DNA of 64,000 bases. It comes from Helcococcus ovis. GTDB lineage: Bacteria > Bacillota > Clostridia > Tissierellales > Peptoniphilaceae. Location: contig NZ_CP119081.1 in the NCBI RefSeq assembly GCF_004524775.2, forward strand, positions 1,302,001 to 1,366,000, written 5' to 3'. The translations under genes and the position numbers were made by a program. This document shows, one piece after another, positions 1-53,265 of this stretch (positions are counted from its first letter, which is position 1; each line of letters starts with the position of its first letter). The notes beneath the pieces are model-generated. The model made no database searches and was not told the origin of the DNA. It saw only the letters and a program-made list of their open reading frames with translations.

Positions 1-1
1 A

Positions 2-1267
2 AAATTTGCAATAGAGATGGGAAAAATCAATTACGATTTTAGTACTTTATACAGCGATCAATACTCATCAAAATATAATTCCGCATCTGATTTATTTGCA
101 GTAACAAGAAAAAAATCTGCTATGTGTATGGCTTTTGGAACAACAGCTTCAAGAGCATTTAATCTTATGGGGATTCCGGCATATGTAGCAACTGCAAAAG
201 TTGAGAGTGGAGGACTTCATATTGTAACAAGAGCTTTCTATGATGGAAAATGGCATACTGTAGATTTAACAAGCAGTAAAAGGGATATAGATATATCAGG
301 TTATTCTGAATATATGTTTTATCGTAGCGAGGATAAATATCAAGAAGTTGATAAAGATTATTCGCCAAAAGAATCATTAGCACATACCTATCTTTTAGCT
401 AACTCACAAGTTATTATTTATAAAAAATATGAAGAATGGGCTCAAAAACAAAAAATTAAAGATTTAGTAGCCGTTAATACAGACGCAATTTATGATTATG
501 CACAAAAAGATTTGACCGCTATGGAAAGAGACCCTGAAAATAAAGTTAAAGAGAGATTAGAAAAAAGAAGAATCGAAAAAGAAAAAGAAGAAGAAAGAAG
601 AAAAATACAAGAAGAAAAAGATAGAAAAGCATGGGCGGAATGGGAATTAGAGAAAGAGCAAAATAAAAAACGTCAACAAGAAGAATTAAGAAAATTACAA
701 GAAAAATTTGAAGAAGAAGAAAGATTAAAAAAACAACCTCAAACACTAAAACAGCCCGCAAAAGATAATAAAATCAAATTAAAAAATAATGATAAAAAAG
801 ATATAAAAAATATTAATAAAGGTTGGAATAAGATTAATAACAAATGGTTTTATAGAAATAATCTTAATAAATTAGCTAAATCTGAATGGGTTTATGATAA
901 AGAATATTCAGCTTGGTACTACCTTTTAGATAACGGCGAAATGGCCACCTCTAAATGGATTAAACATGCCGACTCTAAATGGTACTACCTTTTAGATAAT
1001 GGCGAAATGGCTACCTCTAAATGGATTAAACATACCGACTCTAAATGGTACTACCTTTTAGATAATGGCGAAATGGCCACCTCTAAATGGATTAAACATA
1101 CTGACTCAAAATGGTACTACCTTTTAGATAATGGCGAAATGGCCACCTCTAAATGGATTAAACATACCAACTCTAAATGGTACTACCTTTTAGATAACGG
1201 CGAAATGGCCACCTCTAAATGGATTGATGGATGGTATGTAAATGCTGACGGTGTATGGGTAGAGTAA
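2..1267 (+). CDS. Transglutaminase-like secreted protein with cell-wall-binding repeats (5' end outside window)
   Basis: The reading frame is open to the left edge, so the N-terminus, and any signal peptide, is missing. Counting from the first visible Met (position 17), a transglutaminase/protease-like core is visible: Cys37 (SAMCMAF), His68 (GGLHIV) and Asp83 (HTVDLT) have the spacing of the Cys-His-Asp triad. A Lys/Glu/Arg-rich stretch follows (about residues 165-260, probable coiled coil). The C-terminus carries aromatic repeats of the choline/cell-wall-binding type (WYYLLDNGEMATSKWIKH), ending GWYVNADGVWVE. Family knowledge suggests a surface enzyme that cross-links or cleaves protein or peptide bonds, held on the wall non-covalently by the repeats. 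The last codons are nearly identical in DNA to the end of the surface protein gene at 19791-20915, as part of a longer inverted duplication. Confidence 0.8.
   Translation, partial: KFAIEMGKINYDFSTLYSDQYSSKYNSASDLFAVTRKKSAMCMAFGTTASRAFNLMGIPAYVATAKVESGGLHIVTRAFYDGKWHTVDLTSSKRDIDISGYSEYMFYRSEDKYQEVDKDYSPKESLAHTYLLANSQVIIYKKYEEWAQKQKIKDLVAVNTDAIYDYAQKDLTAMERDPENKVKERLEKRRIEKEKEEERRKIQEEKDRKAWAEWELEKEQNKKRQQEELRKLQEKFEEEERLKKQPQTLKQPAKDNKIKLKNNDKKDIKNINKGWNKINNKWFYRNNLNKLAKSEWVYDKEYSAWYYLLDNGEMATSKWIKHADSKWYYLLDNGEMATSKWIKHTDSKWYYLLDNGEMATSKWIKHTDSKWYYLLDNGEMATSKWIKHTNSKWYYLLDNGEMATSKWIDGWYVNADGVWVE
914..1229 (+). repeat. 66-bp coding tandem repeat in the cell-wall-binding domain
   Basis: A 66-bp unit encoding 22 residues starts at 914, 980, 1046, 1112 and 1178. 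The copies differ by only a few bases, much closer than the divergent repeats of the three related genes at 19.8-24.3 kb, which implies recent expansion or homogenisation and possible variation in copy number. Confidence 0.9.
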
Positions 1268-1407: not shown

Positions 1408-1523
1408 ATGAAAGAGTCATTATTTATAGAAAAAATTACCTATAACTGCAATAAAAAAATTGATTTAATTGAAAAAAGTATTGCAAGATACGCTTTAAGA
1501 TCTATATTTGCAGGAGCTGCCCT
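1408..1523 (+). pseudogene. 5' fragment of a formate/nitrite transporter gene
   Basis: An ATG at 1408 opens a frame giving the first 38 or so residues (MKESLFIEKITYNCNKK...) of the transporter encoded intact at 18854-19651 on the other strand. DNA identity is almost complete and includes the upstream region. Similarity stops abruptly near 1523, where the repeat array starts, and the frame closes soon after. The fragment is a relic of duplication or inversion and cannot encode a transporter, which needs six membrane helices. Confidence 0.9.
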
Positions 1524-1530
1524 TCTTTTT

Positions 1531-2284
1531 TTACCTGTAAATTGCAAAAATATATGAGATACATGAAATTGCGGGGCAAGCATTACCTGTAATATTAAAA
1601 AATAATTGCAGTACATGAATTGCTCAGGGCTGCTGAGCTCACATTACCTGTAAATTGTAAAAATATATGAGATACATGAAATTGTGCGGGTGGCATTACC
1701 TGTAATATTAAAAAATATTTGCAGTACATGAATTTCCAAGTGTTGCGGATCTCAGATTACCTGTAAATTGCAAAAATATATGAGATACATGAAATTGTGA
1801 GGATGGCATTACCTGTAATATTAAAAAATAATAGCAGTACATGAATTTCCGAGTGTTGCGGATCTCAGATTACCTGTAAATTGCAAAAATATATGAGATA
1901 CATGAAATTGTGAGGATGGCATTACCTGTAATATTAAAAAATAATTGCAGTACATGAATTGCCGAGGGCTGCCGAGCTCACATTACCTGTAAATTGCAAA
2001 AATATTTGATATACATGAATTTGTAGGACAGGCATTACCTGTAATATTAAAAAATAATTGCAGTACATGAATTGCCGAGGGCTGCCGAGCTCACATTACC
2101 TGTAAATTGCAAAAATATTTGATATACATGAATTTGTAGGACAGGCATTACCTGTAATATTAAAAAATAATTGCAGTACATGAATTGCCGAGGGCTGCCG
2201 AGCTCACATTACCTGTAAATTGCAAAAATATATGAGATACATGAAATTGCGGGACAGGCATTACCTGTAATATTGAAAAATAAT
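1531..2284 (+). repeat. Array 1: alternating A/B repeats, 113-bp period
   Basis: TTACCTGTAA recurs 14 times. Two unit types alternate: A (TTACCTGTAAATTGC, AT core, GATACATGAAATTG, short GC-rich spacer; 52 bp) and B (TTACCTGTAATATT, AT core, GCAGTACATGAATT, longer GC-rich spacer such as GCCGAGGGCTGCCGAGC; 61 bp). The combined period is 113 bp (A units start at 1531, 1644, 1757 and so on). Each unit has an imperfect inverted repeat, TGTA...TACA, whose outer arms always differ (CCTG on one side, CATG on the other). No coding frame runs through it. Function unknown. Confidence 0.9.
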
Positions 2285-2308
2285 GGAATTGCCGTTTTCG
2301 GCAATTCC
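2285..2308. other. Perfect 10-bp-stem hairpin closing array 1
   Basis: GGAATTGCCG, TTTT, CGGCAATTCC forms a perfect stem. The arm GAATTGCCG is the start of the B-unit spacer, so the last B unit appears to have been cut and folded back on itself. It could also terminate transcription from the array. Confidence 0.8.
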
Positions 2309-2520
2309 GTCTGCTTTTTGAAGCATTGTCGACGAACTTAATCCTAGTTTTACGGACAAATTCGCTATATTCCCATTAACAATCTGCCCCATTACCATAT
2401 GCAGTAATTTATCCACTTCCAAATGATGCATATACCCCACCAAACACACTATTCCGCCAAACCATCCTATTTTCCCCAACTATACTATTCTCACCGCCAG
2501 TCTTTAACTACTGTTTATAT
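2309..2520. other. Unassigned stretch, less AT-rich than surroundings
   Basis: A minus-strand frame of 72 codons (2479 to 2261) runs through this stretch and into the array, but it has no good ribosome binding site and no family I recognise. Base composition differs from neighbours, so it may be a remnant of a foreign gene. No confident gene call. Confidence 0.3.
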
Positions 2521-15371: not shown

Positions 15372-16688
15372 TTATGCCTTCTTTCTGTCCTTTAATATAA
15401 TATTTAATATAAGTGCGACAAGTGTACCTGTTGAAATACCTGACGATAAAATCATTTTCAACGCTTCAGGTAGTCCATTTAGAATTTCCGGTTTTACTGT
15501 TACGCCGATTCCCAGTGCGAATGCTACTGAAATTATAAGCAGTTCTCTATCACCAAGTTTTATCGCAGATAATGTCTTTACCCCTTGGGCTGCGACAAGG
15601 CCAAACATTATTATACCTACTCCTCCTAAAACAGGCTGTGGCATTACTGAAATTAATGCACTTAATTTTGGAAATACACCTAATAATGTTAATATGACAC
15701 CTGCAATAATCATAACATATCTACTTGCAACTTTTGTCAACGTGATTAATCCGACATTTTGCGAAAATGACGTATTTGGACCTGCTCCAAACAATCCTGA
15801 AATCATTGAACCTATACCATCTGCTAAAACCCCATTTGCAACCCTGTCACTTGAAAGTTTTACTTTTGAAGCTTCCCCTATTGCCATCATAATACCTGTG
15901 GTTCCAATCGTCGAAACAACAAATGCCGGCACAAATGATAATGTTGATGATAAGTCAAATTTTATTCCGTTTCCTAAAATATTTGGAATTGCTACCCATG
16001 ATGCATCTGCAACCGGCTTTAGGTCTACCATACCTAATGGTAGGCAAATCAAATAACCAAATACCATTCCTATAAACACTGCTGCCGATGACCAAATTCC
16101 TTTTCCATAGTGATTTAAGAATATTGTAAATAGCATAATTACAAATGCTACTCCCAGATTTTGTAATGAACCATAATTTGAAGCTCCCACTCCACCTGCT
16201 GCCCAATCAACACTAACCGGCAATAATGTTATACCGATAAGCGATACAACTGTCCCGGTAATCAATGGTGGGAAAAATTTGATAATTTTCTTTATAAATC
16301 TACTTAAAATAATTTCAACAAATGAACCTGTAATTGTAGCTCCTATAATTCCCGCTATGCCAAATTTAGCTCCAACACTTATAGACGGATTTACAAATGT
16401 AAAGTCTGTACCCATCATGCCCGGCACTCTTGACCCAATTTTCCATACACCTTTTGATTGCAAAATAGTCGTCAATCCTGATGCAAATATTGTCGCTGAT
16501 ACCATAACCGAAGTTGTAGCAACATCAAATTTTAATGCTGAACAAACAACTAATGGCACAGCAATTATCCCCGCAAAAGCTGCTAAAATATGTTGCAATG
16601 CAAGTATAATACTTACTCCCACAGGTGGCTTAGAATCGATAGAATAAATCAACTCATCTTCATTCTTACTATTAAATTGTTCTTTCAT
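15372..16688 (-). CDS. pbuX: Xanthine/uracil permease (NCS2 family)
   Basis: Started at the ATG at 16688 (behind TTGGAGGAATT), the product has 438 residues and 12-14 hydrophobic segments. NCS2 features are visible: QHILAAFAGIIAVPLVV near the start, the GTDFTFVNPSISVG segment, and NTSFSQNVGLITLTKVASR. It is likely a proton symporter for xanthine given its partner xpt and the upstream purine riboswitch. The frame extends 15 codons upstream into the leader without a ribosome binding site. Confidence 0.9.
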   Translation of the reverse strand: MKEQFNSKNEDELIYSIDSKPPVGVSIILALQHILAAFAGIIAVPLVVCSALKFDVATTSVMVSATIFASGLTTILQSKGVWKIGSRVPGMMGTDFTFVNPSISVGAKFGIAGIIGATITGSFVEIILSRFIKKIIKFFPPLITGTVVSLIGITLLPVSVDWAAGGVGASNYGSLQNLGVAFVIMLFTIFLNHYGKGIWSSAAVFIGMVFGYLICLPLGMVDLKPVADASWVAIPNILGNGIKFDLSSTLSFVPAFVVSTIGTTGIMMAIGEASKVKLSSDRVANGVLADGIGSMISGLFGAGPNTSFSQNVGLITLTKVASRYVMIIAGVILTLLGVFPKLSALISVMPQPVLGGVGIIMFGLVAAQGVKTLSAIKLGDRELLIISVAFALGIGVTVKPEILNGLPEALKMILSSGISTGTLVALILNIILKDRKKA

Positions 16689-16728
16689 ATAATTCCTCCA
16701 AAAAATATTTAAAAACAAAAAAGACTTT

Positions 16729-16761
16729 CTCACGTTTTGAGTTAGAAAATCTTTAAAATGT
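16729..16761 (-). terminator. Riboswitch expression platform: intrinsic terminator
   Basis: On the minus strand AAAGATTTTCTAACTC and GTGAGAAAGTCTTT pair around AAAAC and are followed by TTTTTT, between the purine aptamer and the pbuX ribosome binding site. Confidence 0.85.
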
Positions 16762-17448: not shown

Positions 17449-18102
17449 CAATTTCATGTATTTCAAATATTTTTGCAATTTACAGGTAATGCCATCCTCA
17501 CAATTTCATGTATCTCATATATTTTTGCAATTTACAGGTAATGTGAGATCGGCTGCCCTTGACAATTCATGTACTGCGATTATTTTTCAATATTACAGGT
17601 AATGACACCCTCACAATTTCATGTATCTCATATATTTTTGCAATTTACAGGTAATGTGAGATCGGCTGCCCTCTGCAATTCATGTACTGCTATTATTTTT
17701 CAATATTACAGGTAATGCCTGTCCCATAAATTCATGTATCTCATATATTTTTAAAATTTACAGGTAATCTGATATCGGCTGCCCTTGACAATTCATGTAC
17801 TGCGATTATTTTTTAATATTACAGGTAATGACACCCTCACAATTTCATGTATCTCATATATTTTTGCAATTTACAGGTAATCTGAGCTCGGCAACACTCG
17901 GCAATTCATGTACTGCGATTATTTTTTAATATTACAGGTAATGACACCCCCACAATTTCATGTATCTCATATATTTTTACAATTTACAGGTAATCTGAGC
18001 CCGGCAACCCTCACAATTTCATCTATCTCATATATTTTTGCAATTTACAGGTAATCTGAGCTCGGTAACACCCCCCACACACAATTTCATGTATCTCAAA
18101 GC
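17449..18102 (-). repeat. Array 2: same repeat family as array 1, inverted
   Basis: Read on the minus strand it has the same units as array 1: TTACCTGTAAATTGC with GATACATGAAATTG (A), and TTACCTGTAATATT with GCAGTACATGAATTG (B). There are seven A and four B units; A and B alternate until the last 200 bp, where A units follow each other. It ends within 10 bp of the stop codon of the YoaK-like gene. Confidence 0.9.
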
Positions 18103-18853: not shown

Positions 18854-19651
18854 TTAATCTTTGTAAACTACATCTTTGTTATTTAACCATGCGTACCCGA
18901 ATCCTAAGATTAATCCTCCTCCAACAAGATTTCCTAGAAATGCAAATGTCCACTGCCTAATTACATTTACAATGTTTAATCCTATTACATTTTTACCATA
19001 TTGTGAAAAACCTACTAGTGAGAATGATCCAAAGTTTGCAATTACGTGGTCTAATCCTAGATATACAAACATAAATATTGCTGATAAAATAATGCCTACT
19101 TTTGCATTTTCATCTTTTACAAGCATGAATGCAATAATTGCAATATTTACAAATACATTTGCCAATATACCGCCACTCATAATTTCCGAACTACTATGTG
19201 CTAGTTTACACTCAACGATTTTAACAAGCATACTTGTATCTTTTAGCGAATGTAAAACAGATGTGTTGCTTACCAATATCCCAATCGCAGCTGCTCCAAC
19301 TAAATTAAAAAATGTGCAAACTAGTAAAATCTTTACCGCCTTACTAAATTTTATTTTTCTCAAATATGTACCTGCTGTTAAATACATCATGTTTGATGTC
19401 GCTAATTCTGCATTTAAAAATAATATGTAAATAAGTCCCCAAGAAAATAAAAATGCATACATAAATTTTCCAAGGTTTGGGTGAATTGTATTTAAATAAT
19501 CAGCTGCAACTACGCCGGCTAGAGTTGTCATAGCAAGAGCAGCTCCTGCAAATATAGATCTTAAAGCGTATCTTGCAATACTTTTTTCAATCAAATCAAT
19601 TTTTTTATTGCAGTTATAGGTAATTTTTTCTATAAATAATGACTCTTTCAT
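18854..19651 (-). CDS. Formate/nitrite transporter (FNT family)
   Basis: A 265-residue membrane protein with six helices and an FNT layout: RSIFAGAALAMTTLAG, then GLIYILFLNAELATSNMMYL with the conserved NAELxTSN motif, and GFSQYGKNVIGLNIVNVIRQ. It probably exports formate from mixed-acid fermentation or moves nitrite. The first 116 bp and the upstream region are duplicated, inverted, at 1408-1523. Confidence 0.88.
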   Translation of the reverse strand: MKESLFIEKITYNCNKKIDLIEKSIARYALRSIFAGAALAMTTLAGVVAADYLNTIHPNLGKFMYAFLFSWGLIYILFLNAELATSNMMYLTAGTYLRKIKFSKAVKILLVCTFFNLVGAAAIGILVSNTSVLHSLKDTSMLVKIVECKLAHSSSEIMSGGILANVFVNIAIIAFMLVKDENAKVGIILSAIFMFVYLGLDHVIANFGSFSLVGFSQYGKNVIGLNIVNVIRQWTFAFLGNLVGGGLILGFGYAWLNNKDVVYKD

Positions 19652-19822
19652 TTAATCTCCTATACTATATAATAGCTAAAACATAATTTTTTTAATAATA
19701 GATAAAATCTACATTTTATATTATGTGCATTAAAAAGGGACTAAAAACTATATTTTTAATCCCTCAATATGTTTTATAATCTAATAATTTCTACTCTACC
19801 CATACACCGTCAGCATTTACAT
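19536..19822 (-). repeat. Right copy of the inverted duplication
   Basis: Reverse-complement counterpart of 1236-1523: end of a wall-binding gene (encoding GWYVNADGVWVE), terminator, intergenic region and start of the transporter gene. In this copy the transporter gene continues intact. Confidence 0.9.
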
Positions 19823-20915
19823 ACCAACCATTAATTGTTGTTGATTTAGCCATTTTACCGTCTGATAATAAGTAGTACCAGTTATTATCTGTATGTTTTA
19901 CCCATCTATTTTTTGCCATCTTTCCATTTTCTAATAGATAGTACCAGTTTCCATCTTTGTACTCTACCCATTTATTTACAGCCATATCGCCATCTTCATT
20001 TAAATAGTACCATGATGAATAGTCTTCATCATATAACCAATCTGATTTTGCCATCTTTCCATTTCCTAATAGGTAATACCATTTGTTATTTTTGTATTTT
20101 ACCCATTTATTTGCAGCCATATCGCCTTTTTCATTTAAATAGTACCATGATGAATATTCTTCGTCGTATAACCAATATGATTTTGCCATTTTACCATTTC
20201 CTAATAGATAATACCAATCATTATTTTTGTATTTTACCCATTTATTTACAGCCATATCGCCATCTTCATTTAAATAGTACCATGATGAATATTCTTCGTC
20301 ATATATCCAATCTGATTTTACTAGTTCACCCTTATCATTTGTAAAATACCATTTATTATCAGCTTTCTTTTCCCAACCTTTTTTAATTTTAGGTTTTGCT
20401 TGTTCTTGTTGTTTTTTTCTTTCTTCTTCTTTTTGAAGTCTTTTTATTTCTGCTTCTTTTTCTTTTTTTCTTGATTCTTCTAATAGTTCTTTTCTCTTCT
20501 TTTCCCTTTTAGCTTTTTCTTCTGCTTTTTTCTCTTTTTTTCTTGATTCTTCTAATAACTCTTTTTTCTTCTTTTCTATTTCTGCTATTTTTTCTTTTCT
20601 TCTTGATTCTTCTAGTAATTCTTTTTTCTTCTTTTCTATTTCTGCTATTTTTTCTTTTTTTCTAGTTTTTTCTAATAACTCTTTCAATTTGTTATGATCT
20701 TTTCTTTTTGGTTTCTCTAATTTTTTATTAGTTTCTTCTTTTTTAGGCTCTTCCTTCTTTACTTCTTGTTTTGTTTCTTCCCCAGCAAATGAAACACTTT
20801 GTGCTCCAACAGCCCCAAAGAAAATTGAAAATGCTAAAATTCCTGAGCACAATCCTGCACTTAATTTTCTCATACCATATTTAGGCTTTTTTTCGATATT
20901 ATTTCTTTTAAACAT
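19791..20915 (-). CDS. Secreted coiled-coil protein with cell-wall-binding repeats (surface protein 1)
   Basis: A 374-residue protein. The N-terminus is YSIRK-like but altered (KYGMRKLSAGLCSGILAF), with a signal peptide likely cut after QSVSFA. Residues 50-175 are Lys/Glu-rich with repeats of KKKELLEESRKKEK (coiled coil). The C-terminal half holds about nine wall-binding repeats alternating the forms SSWYYLNEDGDMAVNKWVKY and NWYYLLGNGKMAKS. There is no sortase motif, so anchoring should be non-covalent through the repeats. GGAGG lies upstream of the ATG. Confidence 0.82.
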   Translation of the reverse strand: MFKRNNIEKKPKYGMRKLSAGLCSGILAFSIFFGAVGAQSVSFAGEETKQEVKKEEPKKEETNKKLEKPKRKDHNKLKELLEKTRKKEKIAEIEKKKKELLEESRRKEKIAEIEKKKKELLEESRKKEKKAEEKAKREKKRKELLEESRKKEKEAEIKRLQKEEERKKQQEQAKPKIKKGWEKKADNKWYFTNDKGELVKSDWIYDEEYSSWYYLNEDGDMAVNKWVKYKNNDWYYLLGNGKMAKSYWLYDEEYSSWYYLNEKGDMAANKWVKYKNNKWYYLLGNGKMAKSDWLYDEDYSSWYYLNEDGDMAVNKWVEYKDGNWYYLLENGKMAKNRWVKHTDNNWYYLLSDGKMAKSTTINGWYVNADGVWVE

Positions 20916-21069
20916 ATCTAATCCTCCAAAAATATTAATTTATATCTAAACATACAATGCTTATATGCTTACTTACTAAGTATACTAAATATTTTTTTAT
21001 TATGTCAAATATTATATTTATTTTAATCAAATTTTTATATAAAGGCCAACTAAAAATTACATATAGCAA

Positions 21070-21100
21070 AAAAAGGATAAACTTGATTGTCTATCCTTTT
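21070..21100 (-). terminator. Terminator of surface protein 2 gene
   Basis: AAGGATA and TATCCTT pair on the minus strand, followed by TTTTTTT, just after the stop codon at 21115. Confidence 0.75.
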
Positions 21101-21114
21101 AATGTATTTAGTTT

Positions 21115-22524
21115 TTATCTATTTTTCCAAATACCATTAGCATCTACATACCAACCATTAATTGTTGTTGATTTGGCCATTTTACCATCTCCTAATAAAT
21201 AGTACCAGTTATTATCTGTATGTTGTATCCATTTATCTTTAGCCATATCTCCGCCATTGTTGAAGTAATACCATGATACATATTTTTTGTCATATACCCA
21301 CTCTGATTTTGCCATCTTTCCATTTTCCAATAGGTAATACCAGCTATTTGTGTGTTTTACCCATTCTGAAACTGCCATTTTACCATTACCTAATAGATAA
21401 TACCAATTGTTGTCAGTATGTTTTACCCATTTTGAAACTGCCATCTTTCCATTTTCCAATAGATAATACCAGCTACCATCTGAATATTGCACCCATTTAT
21501 TACTTGTCATTTCGCCGTATTCATTTAAGTAATACCATGATGAATATCCTTCGTCGTATATCCAAGAAGATCTAACAAATTTTACACCGTCATTTGTGTA
21601 ATACCATTTTTCAGATACTTTGTTCCAACCTTTTTTATATTTTTGATTTTGGTTATTTCTTCTATCTCTAGCTGTTTCGTCTTCTCTTCTTTCTCTTTCT
21701 TTTCTTCTTCTTATTTCTTCTTCTGTTTCTTCTTCAATATCTTCTCTCTTTGGTTCTTCTTTCTTAGGTGAATCTTTTTTAGGAGTTTCTGTTTTTGGTT
21801 TTTCTTCTTTAGGAGTTTCTGTTTTTGGTTTTTCTTCTTTAGGAGTTTCTGCTTTTGGTTTTTCTTCTTTCTTTTCACTTTCTACCGGTTTATTAAAATC
21901 AGATTTATTAAATGTAGCTACTACATATTCAGGTCCGGTTATTTTAATTGATGAAATATTTTTAATTTTATCAATTCCGGATAAACTTAATGTTTTTGTC
22001 TCAGGTTTATATTCTACATTGATAGCGTTTTGAGGTTCATTATTAAACTTTATAACTTCTTTTAGAGTTGTATCATATTTACCATTACGCTTTATTTTAT
22101 TATCTTTTATTTCAAATTTATCGTTAGTTGCTCCCTTAAATTCTCCATTATTATCATTATAAGTAATATATACTTCAATTGTCCTTCCACTTAAATTTGT
22201 AACTTCTATAGCTTTATTGACAATTTTAGCATGAATTTTAAAAGATTCTAAATATTCCCTATGCTCTTTATCACTCCTAATTATAGCTCTCTCATAGGGT
22301 TTCTTCATCAATTCTCTTTCCATTAAGTTTTCTTTTAATTTTTCTCTAGGGATAGTAGTTAATTTTACATTTTGTGATTTATCTTTTCCATTTACTAAAG
22401 CAGCCTCTGAAATCCCAATAGAATTAAAAAATACACCTATAGCTAACATTCCTGAGCAAATTCCTAATCCTAAGCTTCTTATTCCGGATTTTGAATTTTT
22501 TCTATTTTTTCTTTCATTTATCAT
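21115..22524 (-). CDS. Secreted protein with novel N-terminal domain and cell-wall-binding repeats (surface protein 2)
   Basis: 469 residues from the ATG at 22524 (behind GAGAGG; an earlier in-frame start lacks one). The signal region is a variant YSIRK type (SGIRSLGLGICSGMLAIG). A folded domain of about 110 residues follows (AKIVNKAIEVTNLSGRTIEV to KNISSIKITGPEYVV) and resembles one in the next gene. Then come Pro/Lys/Glu repeats (PKEEKPKTET) and an Arg/Glu stretch, and about eight wall-binding repeats ending STTINGWYVDANGIW. No sorting signal. Confidence 0.8.
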   Translation of the reverse strand: MINERKNRKNSKSGIRSLGLGICSGMLAIGVFFNSIGISEAALVNGKDKSQNVKLTTIPREKLKENLMERELMKKPYERAIIRSDKEHREYLESFKIHAKIVNKAIEVTNLSGRTIEVYITYNDNNGEFKGATNDKFEIKDNKIKRNGKYDTTLKEVIKFNNEPQNAINVEYKPETKTLSLSGIDKIKNISSIKITGPEYVVATFNKSDFNKPVESEKKEEKPKAETPKEEKPKTETPKEEKPKTETPKKDSPKKEEPKREDIEEETEEEIRRRKERERREDETARDRRNNQNQKYKKGWNKVSEKWYYTNDGVKFVRSSWIYDEGYSSWYYLNEYGEMTSNKWVQYSDGSWYYLLENGKMAVSKWVKHTDNNWYYLLGNGKMAVSEWVKHTNSWYYLLENGKMAKSEWVYDKKYVSWYYFNNGGDMAKDKWIQHTDNNWYYLLGDGKMAKSTTINGWYVDANGIWKNR

Positions 22525-22591
22525 AGTATAACCTCTCAATTTTTAAAACAAATCTTTATAATTAAATTGTTATTATAAAATATCTGTGATT

Positions 22592-24328
22592 TTATTTTTC
22601 CCATATACCTTTTGAGTTAACATACCAACCGTTTATACGTGTAGATTTAGCCATTTTACCGTTTCCTAATAAATAGTACCAGTTATTATCTGTATGTTGT
22701 ATCCATTTATTTGCAGCCATATCTCCACTATTGTTGAAATAGTACCATGATACATATTCTTTGTCATATACCCATTCTGATTTTGCCATTTTACCATTTC
22801 CTAATAAATAGTACCAACTATTATTTGTATGTTGTATCCATTTATTTGCAGCCATATCTCCGCCATTGTTGAAATAGTACCATGATGAATATGTCTTGTC
22901 ATATACCCATTCTGATTTTGCCATTTTACCATTTCCTAATAAATAGTACCAATTATTATCTGTGTATTGTATCCACTCATTTGCTACCATATATCCATTA
23001 CTATTTAGGTAATACCATGATTTATATTTTAAATCATATATCCACTTTGAAATGACCTTATTACCTTTTTCATCTCTGTAAGTCCATTTATTACCTATTT
23101 CTTCCCAACCTGTTTTAATTTCTTGTTTTGGTTGTTCTTTCTTTGGCTCTTCTTTCTTTGGTAAGTCCTTCTTTGGCTCTTCTTTCTTTGGTAAGTCCTT
23201 CTTTGGCTCTTCTTTCTTTGGTAAGTCCTTCTTTGGCTCTTCTTTCTTTGGTAAGTCCTTCTTTGGCTCTTCTTTCTTTGGTAAGTCCTTCTTTGGTTCT
23301 TCTTTCTTTGGTAAGTCCTTCTTTGGCTCTTCTTTCTTTGGCAAGTCCTTCTTTGGCTCTTCTTTCTTTGGTGTGTCTTTCTTTGGTTCTTCTTTCTTTG
23401 GTAAGTCCTTCTTTGGTTCTTCTTTCTTTGGTAAGTCCTTCTTTGGTTCTTCTTTTTTTGGTAAATCCTTCTTTGGTTCTTCTTTCTTTGGTAAGTCCTT
23501 CTTTGGTTCTTCTTTCTTTGGTAAGTCCTTCTTTGGCTCTTCTTTCTTTGGCTCTTCTTTCTTTGGCTCTTCTTTCTTTGGCTCTTCTTTCTTTGGCTCT
23601 TCTTTCTTTGGTAAGTCCTTCTTTGGTTCTTCTTTCTTTGGTAAGTCCTTCTTTGGCTCTTCTTTCTTTGGTAAGTCCTTCTTTGGCTCTTCTTTCTTTG
23701 GTAAGTCCTTCTTTGGTTCTTCTTTCTTTGGCTTTTCTTCTTTTGGATTTGTTGGTGCCGGTTCTTTTGGTGTCTTTGGTGATAATTCTATATTTTTAAA
23801 TAATTTTGGATAAAAATTTTCAATAGCTCCACCTGGTAATAATAAAGTAATCTTTTCTAATCCCTTTGATTTATCAGTATTTAATACTAACGTTTTAAAC
23901 TCTTTAGTATATTTTAATTTTATTTTATCATTTGTCTTTTTATTATATACAATTTCGGACATTTTAAAATTACCATTTCGCCCTACTATTTTTCCATCTT
24001 TTATTTCAATACTTCCTAAATTTGAAACATCTCCTCTTTCATTTTTATAGTCTATAATATATTCTACAATATGTCCTTCTTCTAAATTAGATACAACAAT
24101 TACCTTACCGTAATTTTCAGCTTTAACTTTTGCATCTCCTAGAGAATTATTAGATATTGCACCCCCCGCTAACGAATCACTTGCATAAACTGTATTTTGA
24201 GAGTTTGATGTCCTTAAAACTTCCCCATTCATAAACAATCCGAAACCTAATACAACTGAGCATAATCCTAAACTCAATTTTCTCATACCGTATTTAGGTT
24301 TCTTTTCTATTTTATTTCCTTTAATCAT
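22592..24328 (-). CDS. Secreted protein with decapeptide minisatellite and cell-wall-binding repeats (surface protein 3)
   Basis: 578 residues from the ATG at 24328 (behind GGAGG). Signal region KYGMRKLSLGLCSVVLGFG. A domain of about 110 residues (ENYGKVIVVSNLEEGHIVEY to GLEKITLLLPGG) is related to that of surface protein 2. Residues of about 200-400 consist of roughly 20 copies of KKEEPKKDLP or KKEEP, likely an extended wall-spanning stalk. The C-terminus has about eight aromatic wall-binding repeats ending STRINGWYVNSKGIWEK. Its expression is divergent from apbE. Confidence 0.82.
   Translation of the reverse strand: MIKGNKIEKKPKYGMRKLSLGLCSVVLGFGLFMNGEVLRTSNSQNTVYASDSLAGGAISNNSLGDAKVKAENYGKVIVVSNLEEGHIVEYIIDYKNERGDVSNLGSIEIKDGKIVGRNGNFKMSEIVYNKKTNDKIKLKYTKEFKTLVLNTDKSKGLEKITLLLPGGAIENFYPKLFKNIELSPKTPKEPAPTNPKEEKPKKEEPKKDLPKKEEPKKDLPKKEEPKKDLPKKEEPKKDLPKKEEPKKEEPKKEEPKKEEPKKEEPKKDLPKKEEPKKDLPKKEEPKKDLPKKEEPKKDLPKKEEPKKDLPKKEEPKKDTPKKEEPKKDLPKKEEPKKDLPKKEEPKKDLPKKEEPKKDLPKKEEPKKDLPKKEEPKKDLPKKEEPKKDLPKKEEPKKEQPKQEIKTGWEEIGNKWTYRDEKGNKVISKWIYDLKYKSWYYLNSNGYMVANEWIQYTDNNWYYLLGNGKMAKSEWVYDKTYSSWYYFNNGGDMAANKWIQHTNNSWYYLLGNGKMAKSEWVYDKEYVSWYYFNNSGDMAANKWIQHTDNNWYYLLGNGKMAKSTRINGWYVNSKGIWEK
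23137..23733 (-). repeat. 30-bp coding minisatellite
   Basis: About 20 tandem copies of a 30-bp unit (plus-strand form starts GGTAAGTCCTTCTTTGG). Most differ only by a C/T at one site; a block near 23540-23600 is made of 15-bp half units. All variants keep the reading frame, so copy-number change would alter stalk length without inactivating the gene. Confidence 0.93.
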
Positions 24329-24599
24329 AAAACAATCCTCCATATGATTATAAATTTTTATTTTTTATAAATTTACCATACCCTAGATATAGTAAAAACA
24401 TAATAAAAAAATTAATTATTTTTTACAATTATTTTACAAAATATTTACATTTAATAAAATCCGCAAAATTGTTTATTTATCAAGTTTAACAAGTGTTTTT
24501 CTATCAAAATTATTCATTTGAATGAAACCGAAATTTAAGAGTATATATATTTATTATATTTTTAAGATTTTTGTATTATAATAATTATGGAGAAGATAT

Positions 24600-46225: not shown

Positions 46226-46430
46226 ATATTTTATGAAAAATCATGTATATTGTATTTTTTAAATTTTACAGGTAAATTTTTAATTATTTTTTAAATTTCA
46301 CCTGTAAATAATCAATACTTTTAATTTACATGTAATCTACATGACTCCCAAAAAGTTTTTACCTGTAAATAGCAAATATTATTAATTTACATGACCTTTC
46401 AAAAACTTTTTTACCTGTAAAAGCCAGCAT
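46226..46430. repeat. Array 3: degenerate TCATGTA / TACAGGTAA repeats
   Basis: Units have the same ends as arrays 1 and 2 (TCATGTA, AT core of about 20-25 bp, TTTACAGGTAA, and the reverse, TTTTTACCTGTAAATAGC ... TTTACATGA), but without the GC-rich spacers and with mixed orientation. The stretch 46336-46402 is almost identical to 52942-53011. Confidence 0.75.
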
Positions 46431-52697: not shown

Positions 52698-53011
52698 ATA
52701 ATCATGTATTATGGAATTTTTTTTATATTACAGGTAAATTCTTTTGAAAATCATGTATTACAATGATTTTTTTATATTACAGGTAAAAAAGATTAAAAAT
52801 TATCATGTATTACAAATATTTTAATAATTTACATGAAAAATTTTACAAATCACTGTTTTGAATACATGTAATTCTTACATTATTAAAATTTACAGGTAGT
52901 TGTCCTAAAAAATTTACCTGTAAATATCGAATACTTTTAATTTACATGTAATATACTTGACTCCCAAAAAGTTTTTACCTGTAAATAGCAAATATTATTA
53001 ATTTACATGAC
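52698..53011. repeat. Array 4: degenerate TCATGTA / TACAGGTAA repeats
   Basis: Repeating TCATGTATTA, AT core, ATATTACAGGTAAA units, then mixed-orientation units ending with a segment shared with array 3 (from TTTTTACCTGTAAATAGC to TTTACATGACC). The IS3-family element begins 11 bp after it. Confidence 0.75.
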
Positions 53012-53265
53012 CTTTCAAAATTAAACTACTACCTATAAGCTGGACACATAAAATTACATTTTGACAGTATATATTAAAATAAACTTAAACTACTACCTAT
53101 AAGCTGGTCACATAAAATTACATTTTGACAATATATATTAAATGGCCATACCAAAAATTATACAGTCATATGTAATAAATTTTATAAGAAATTATTGGTA
53201 ATACCTTTTTATAGACTAATTAATTCTCTAGTGATATATTAAATTTATAGGAAAGGAAAATTATC

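Follow-up and report, generated by a model that had tools for sequence, protein, structure and literature searches.

The described systems closest to the repeats reported here are REP sequences and REPINs with their RAYT enzymes. Each RAYT is adjoined by its own flavour of repeat, many gene-less copies of which lie elsewhere, and tandem REP arrays with two alternating spacings are on record (PMC3116915); the GTAG/CGTC end tag of REP units is the subject of PMC3733652. The tandem arrays that we found in the genome of Helcococcus ovis resemble REP/REPIN-RAYT systems in that the repeats are extragenic, imperfectly palindromic, high-copy and species-restricted, that a different flavour stands beside each paralogous enzyme and that gene-less copies occur. 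They differ in that the enzyme is a putative PD-(D/E)XK-type nuclease and not an HUH/Y1 transposase, that the repeats come as long, helically phased tandem arrays and not as singlets or REPIN doublets and have weak hairpin potential, and that the GTAG/CGTC tag is absent, the ends of the core being TTACCTGTAA and TACATGAA. Membership of the REPIN-RAYT class was rejected because the only Y1_Tnp match in the genome (1242729-1243088) has no arm sequences within the surrounding 5 kb and the linked enzyme is unrelated.

TIGR-Tas systems, the hallmark of which is 36-nt processed tigRNAs, and CRISPR arrays were compared in the same way. As in TIGR-Tas (PMC12045711), a single nuclease-type gene has an array up- or downstream of it and the repeat is locus-specific, whereas the units here are longer and palindromic, their interiors are repeated rather than guide-like and arrays are also found distant from the gene. 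TIGR-Tas was ruled out by the missing Nop domain (PF01798), which is absent from the genome and was detected in control genomes. With CRISPR arrays the repeats share their regular alternation with spacers and a repeat length of 37 bp, but the spacers are themselves repeated, in two classes, and the linked nuclease does not belong to an identified Cas family; a CRISPR array was ruled out because the spacers are not unique, and no Cas protein was found among the array neighbours scanned with Pfam. Since every known family tested fails a defining feature, we rate the nuclease-repeat system as new, and no description of such a pairing was found in the open-access literature or libraries searched.

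Arrays in the window and in the genome

The window, that is the whole stretch of DNA analysed, comprises 64,000 bp (1302001-1366000 of a single 1,773,424-bp contig) and its features are collected in Table 1. Tandem Repeats Finder (TRF) reported array 1 as a repeat with a period of 113 bp, 6.7 copies and 93% matches. Within each period an A unit of 52 bp is followed by a B unit of 61 bp, and the units carry a 37-bp core, TTACCTGTAA-N19-TACATGAA, with inverted arms about 28 bp apart. The core matches array 1 exactly 13 times, and 100 shuffled versions of the window with its dinucleotide composition preserved gave 0 matches. Two kinds of interior and two kinds of spacer take turns along the array, each present 6-7 times with minor variation.

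Table 1. Features of the window, numbered from its first nucleotide.
Feature	Position	Strand	Description
Formate/nitrite transporter gene, 5' fragment	1408-1558	+	cut off at array 1
Array 1	1531-2284	+	13 complete 37-bp cores and a truncated 14th; 52/61-bp steps alternate
Hairpin-like GGAATTGCC-GTTTTC-GGCAATTCC, T-rich stretch after it	2285-2325	+	end of array 1
Array 2	17453-18098	-	11 cores (10 exact, 1 with mismatch), half unit at 5' end, mostly 52/61 alternation
Intact formate/nitrite transporter gene	18854-19651	-	PF01226; paralogous reference for the truncation
Diverged array	46240-46395		3 cores, divergent orientation (- + +)
Diverged array	52701-53011		6 cores, divergent (- - - - + +); adjoins IS3-type rve fragment

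A preliminary description of array 1 had counted seven A and seven B units. The seven A units were recovered, but only six B units are complete and the seventh is truncated (2261-2284), lacking TACATGAA and passing into the hairpin-like sequence. The same description was accurate on the exact 113-bp period made of alternating 52- and 61-bp steps, on the constant asymmetry of the core arms (CCTG on one, CATG on the other, in the same sense in 13/13 complete units) and on the GC-rich spacers (57% GC; cores 23%, window 27%), which differ between A and B units and form two classes. It had also stated that no coding frame explains the array, and a 113-bp period indeed cannot be a coding repeat, except that the first ~28 bp of the array overlap the 3' end of the truncated transporter frame. 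In RNA folding a three-period stretch performed no better than its shuffles on either strand. No Rfam family matched the array, the sole Rfam match being a purine riboswitch elsewhere (RF00167; 16755-16852, minus strand), upstream of the gene at 15372-16733.

The truncated transporter gene at the border of array 1 belongs to a segmental duplication (1108-1524 on the plus strand, about 19535-19950 on the minus strand; 89% identity over 419 bp) which spans the last part of a choline-binding gene and the first part of the transporter gene. Homology to the intact transporter copy stops at about 1524, which leaves 6 bp to the first core, and about 40 codons remain of the copy beside the array. Either a deletion accompanied the arrival of the array or one extended into an existing array. 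The choline-binding-repeat surface proteins themselves form a cluster (1-1267, plus strand; 19791-24343, minus strand) with near-identical 66-bp internal repeats; the two proteins that were scanned matched PF19127, PF01473 and PF19085, and one of the cluster has a YSIRK-type signal.

Array 2 and the two diverged arrays had been omitted from the preliminary description. Array 2 is located downstream of a DUF1275 gene. In the whole genome 72 exact cores were found at 7 places (about 110, 1231, 1249, 1251, 1278, 1304 and 1319 kb), and 132 cores when up to 3 mismatches were allowed vs 6 for a reversed control; the diverged arrays obtained with 3 mismatches are at about 224, 789, 1348, 1355 and 1676 kb, and the genome has about 12 arrays of the core. 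The arms were exactly 19 bp apart in all 72 exact cores even though 10-30 bp were permitted in the search; the interior between these conserved arms drifts. By eye on open reading frame maps the arrays are intergenic. Recent arrays are unidirectional and most of the old ones are divergent, with minus units to the left, plus units to the right and the TTACCTG ends face to face. Given that several arrays have the same A/B order and the same spacer sequences, multi-unit blocks were probably copied, and not single units. The alternation of A and B needs no selection since steps of 50, 51, 52 and 61 bp run in other orders in sister arrays; higher-order (dimer) amplification accounts for it.

Dispersal of the core is restricted to the species. 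It was absent, even in a looser form, from 129 other genomes of the family, and a search of 85,000 species genomes returned seven single core matches, which is about the chance expectation. Viral contigs likewise gave only single scattered matches at about chance level and blastn of the array against plasmids and phages gave none; a viral, plasmid or phage origin was rejected on these results. No published repeat class in the literature searched matched the units, and the cores sit in arrays, both in line with the structured array system that had first been proposed.

The linked nuclease-like gene and its arrays in other genomes

An intact 272-codon gene outside the window (G000:C1:1249773-1250588) has arrays of the same core on both sides, at 1248.7-1249.7 kb and 1250.7-1251.1 kb. 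The outermost units face away from the gene on either side (- gene +) and several gene-less diverged arrays retain a <<< >>> arrangement, which recalls transposon ends and MITEs; unlike these, other loci are one-sided or have units in the same direction and there is no known transposase. The 272-aa protein had no convincing match in Pfam, NCBIfam or PDB sequences. In its C-terminal half (RSKSEKILAD...YKYE.PL...PDFTF...IYWEHFGMMD) the residues E167, P196-D197-F198 and W211-E212-H213 are invariant in 25 homologs. The PADLOC profile HEAT_CxxC_PDDEXK matched 22 of the 25 members (best 1.6e-9) and the PHROG Holliday junction resolvase profile matched 13 (best 2.1e-6). We assign to this half a PD-(D/E)XK-type nuclease domain of putative fold, and we take the N-terminal half to resemble a small sheet-plus-helix DNA-binding domain of the integrase arm-binding type.

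The same genome carries two more intact paralogs (1663 and 1692 kb), each with its own different repeats, and three that are broken by stop codons (about 714, 957 and 1646 kb; L153, L156 and L152). The nuclease domain was also observed within large proteins of distant bacteria, some of them RecD-like helicases (L112, L133-L146), where it matches the PADLOC candidate PDC-S68; these larger proteins have the nuclease domain alone in common with the 272-aa protein and no arrays nearby. No relative of the nuclease was found in viral contigs, and a 4-kb fecal 'phage' contig contained one partial relative and no array.

Homologs were found in 16/130 genomes of the same family and 58/150 of a second family, counts that include some matches to the nuclease domain only in larger proteins, with up to about 8 per genome. 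To measure the association we analysed 80 homolog loci, each within a stretch of at most 16 kb, sampling one genome per species. A tandem array was defined by a TRF score of at least 80, a period of 38-90 and a location within 600 bp of the homolog, and the background was measured in the same way in 600-bp bins 2-8 kb away. With these counts, which depend on the TRF threshold, an array was present at 59/80 homolog loci (74%) vs 44/1506 background bins (2.9%), upstream of the homolog at 43 loci, downstream at 24 and on both sides at 8. By TRF about a quarter of the loci lack an array; several of these 21 have exact inverted-repeat arrays that TRF missed (e.g. L201) or a contig end near the gene, and at L231 an array lies a little beyond the 600-bp limit. 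A strict scan for exact 8-mer inverted repeats was too insensitive to be used for the counts. Arrays beside the same uncharacterised nuclease-like gene in so many relatives suggest an as yet undescribed, selfish pairing of nuclease and repeat.

The arms vary by lineage, for example GACCGTGCCTTT..AAAGGCACGGTC, TTACGGGTCA..TGACCCGTAA, CTAGGTA..TACCTAG and TGATGCTTT..AAAGCATCA. The unit consensus was more palindromic than its own shuffles in 26/50 cases at p<0.05 (Fisher combined p 1e-19), and the direction of the units is nearly always constant inside an array. All 14 homolog pairs that are at least 70% identical have array sequence in common and almost none of the pairs below 60% do; homolog identity and array sharing were correlated (Mantel r 0.64, 0/2000 permutations). 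Judged from these comparisons, the site sequence turns over together with the protein lineage, paralogs in one genome having different sites. Part of the sharing between close homologs is plain inheritance, and it could be simple inheritance.

At 49 independent loci the array periods fall into clusters of 42-45, 51-55, 61-64, 72-75 and 83-85 bp. In a scan from 7 to 16 bp the best common divisor was 10.5 bp (R 0.68, phase +0.3 bp), a value reached by 0/5000 smoothed resamples, and distant tandem repeats without inverted arms showed no 10.5-bp fit (n=16, p 0.12). Since the periods cluster at whole helical turns, the units tend toward one face of the DNA, and if the nuclease-repeat reading is right the quantisation would directly predict the way in which the protein assembles on DNA. 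The steps of the species' own core fit 10.5 bp less well and only roughly, 52 bp being 4.95 turns, 61 bp 5.81 and 50-51 bp 4.8.

A second genome, G091, provides a comparable case with 48 exact palindromic CCCATGTTA..TAACATGGG units spread over about 11 loci, with a nuclease gene beside just one of them. The units were absent from 8 other genomes, including 4 congeners. When sites were anchored on one arm, 69/85 carried the other arm at 26-27 bp, with an interior that is almost information-free. Most of the gene-less arrays sit between convergent genes. One array follows a gene which in three congeners is followed directly by another gene; the neighbourhood is rearranged and does not form a clean empty site.

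Interpretation of the arrays

We interpret array 1 as a daughter array, without a gene of its own, in a nuclease-repeat system that expands and disperses its own repeats, and we put the probability of this reading at roughly 0.6. The arms of the 37-bp core would most likely be a dimer binding site of the 272-aa nuclease-family protein, which would occupy the tandem sites on roughly the same helix face. Nicking or cutting at the sites, or at joints formed there, would lead to recombinational repair, and the repair could both expand an array, giving rise to the dimeric A/B higher-order repeats, and copy multi-unit blocks to other intergenic sites. What the data show directly is the anatomy of the arrays, their dispersal within one species, their association with the nuclease across genomes, arms that are distinct for each nuclease lineage and conserved around a drifting interior, and helically quantised periods. 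We infer binding, cleavage, mobilisation and the causing of expansion and dispersal by the nuclease from sequence comparisons. The nuclease activity must be restrained, since free cutting at the sites would damage the chromosome; one option is that the protein acts on unusual structures, at which the weak similarity to Holliday junction resolvases hints. The pair would then be an element, selfish or domesticated, that maintains a repeat population of its own in the manner of REPIN-RAYT, with a different enzyme.

In the preliminary description the constant asymmetry of the arms had been seen as a sign of selected site structure, with recombinase core sites or protein-binding arrays as examples. 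Its view of a structured, site-like array system rather than simple slippage is retained, because the arms are kept while interiors and spacers drift and because the architecture recurs with other arms beside nuclease homologs. Recombinase core sites or integron attC sites received no support, as no tyrosine or serine recombinase was found among the linked genes scanned and the linked gene appears to encode a PD-(D/E)XK-type nuclease.

The same features can be read without a mobilising nuclease. If the arrays were operator or structural sites to which the nuclease-family protein or another one binds, serving autoregulation, insulation, termination or nucleoid organisation, with ordinary recombination as the cause of dispersal, one would expect periods of whole helical turns for phased protein binding, and the more frequent upstream position, the constant orientation of units inside an array and the location of the gene-less G091 arrays would also fit. 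We nevertheless regard this as unlikely given the many gene-less arrays far from the nuclease and the different arms of each nuclease lineage; degraded paralogs and species-restricted repeats look like turnover of a mobile element and not like fixed regulation. Neutral satellite DNA, formed by slippage, unequal crossing-over and chance copying with the nuclease hitch-hiking, would be compatible with the dimeric higher-order repeats and the near-identical adjacent 113-bp units, which are typical of unequal exchange, and with the rearrangement-like truncated gene at array 1. That every array preserves the arms and the 19 bp between them while interiors change, that the periods are quantised and that the arrays are associated with one protein family so far above background makes this quite improbable. 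Transcribed guide-RNA arrays of CRISPR or TIGR type, in which the 19-bp interior or the spacers would serve as guides, appear highly improbable. Constant palindromic arms, variable interiors, locus-specific repeats and a nuclease up- or downstream give the loci a superficially TIGR-Tas-like appearance (PMC12045711), but two interior and two spacer types, each present 6-7 times, would make a useless guide repertoire, and the missing Nop domain and the folding and Rfam results also speak against guides.

Returning to the self-dispersing nuclease-repeat system, we tentatively propose, at somewhat less than even odds, that it represents a new kind of mobile system in which a small PD-(D/E)XK-type nuclease would assemble on tandem inverted-repeat sites in register with the helix and copy blocks of them in trans, each lineage evolving its own site and several independent pairs coexisting in a genome. 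If mobilisation is confirmed, some would class the system as a variant of the REPIN-RAYT way of life. If the proposal is true, a recurrent unnamed nuclease family would gain a partner and a testable role, and bacteria would have a second route to a private repeat population, parallel to REPIN-RAYT and based on an unrelated enzyme. Studies of how nuclease site preference evolves could then draw on dozens of naturally occurring enzyme-site pairs that differ in specificity, and there would be an explanation for VNTR-like arrays specific to a species and for local rearrangements of the kind seen in the truncated transporter gene.

Other short repeats were observed next to some of the arrays. Two 52-bp inverted-repeat units (AAGCCGTGC..GCACGGCTT) directly follow an array at about 1251.15-1251.30 kb of the genome (7650-7795 of L011) and may represent a terminator or a further small repeat family. 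Two 64-bp tandem copies (53017-53142 of the window) lie between a diverged array and the IS3-type rve gene fragment, and the array at 224 kb (L089) also adjoins a similar transposase fragment. Short tandem GTAGTGGTTTTA repeats stand directly before the array at 1230.6-1230.7 kb (4100-4203 of L010), downstream of a MATE-like transporter gene.
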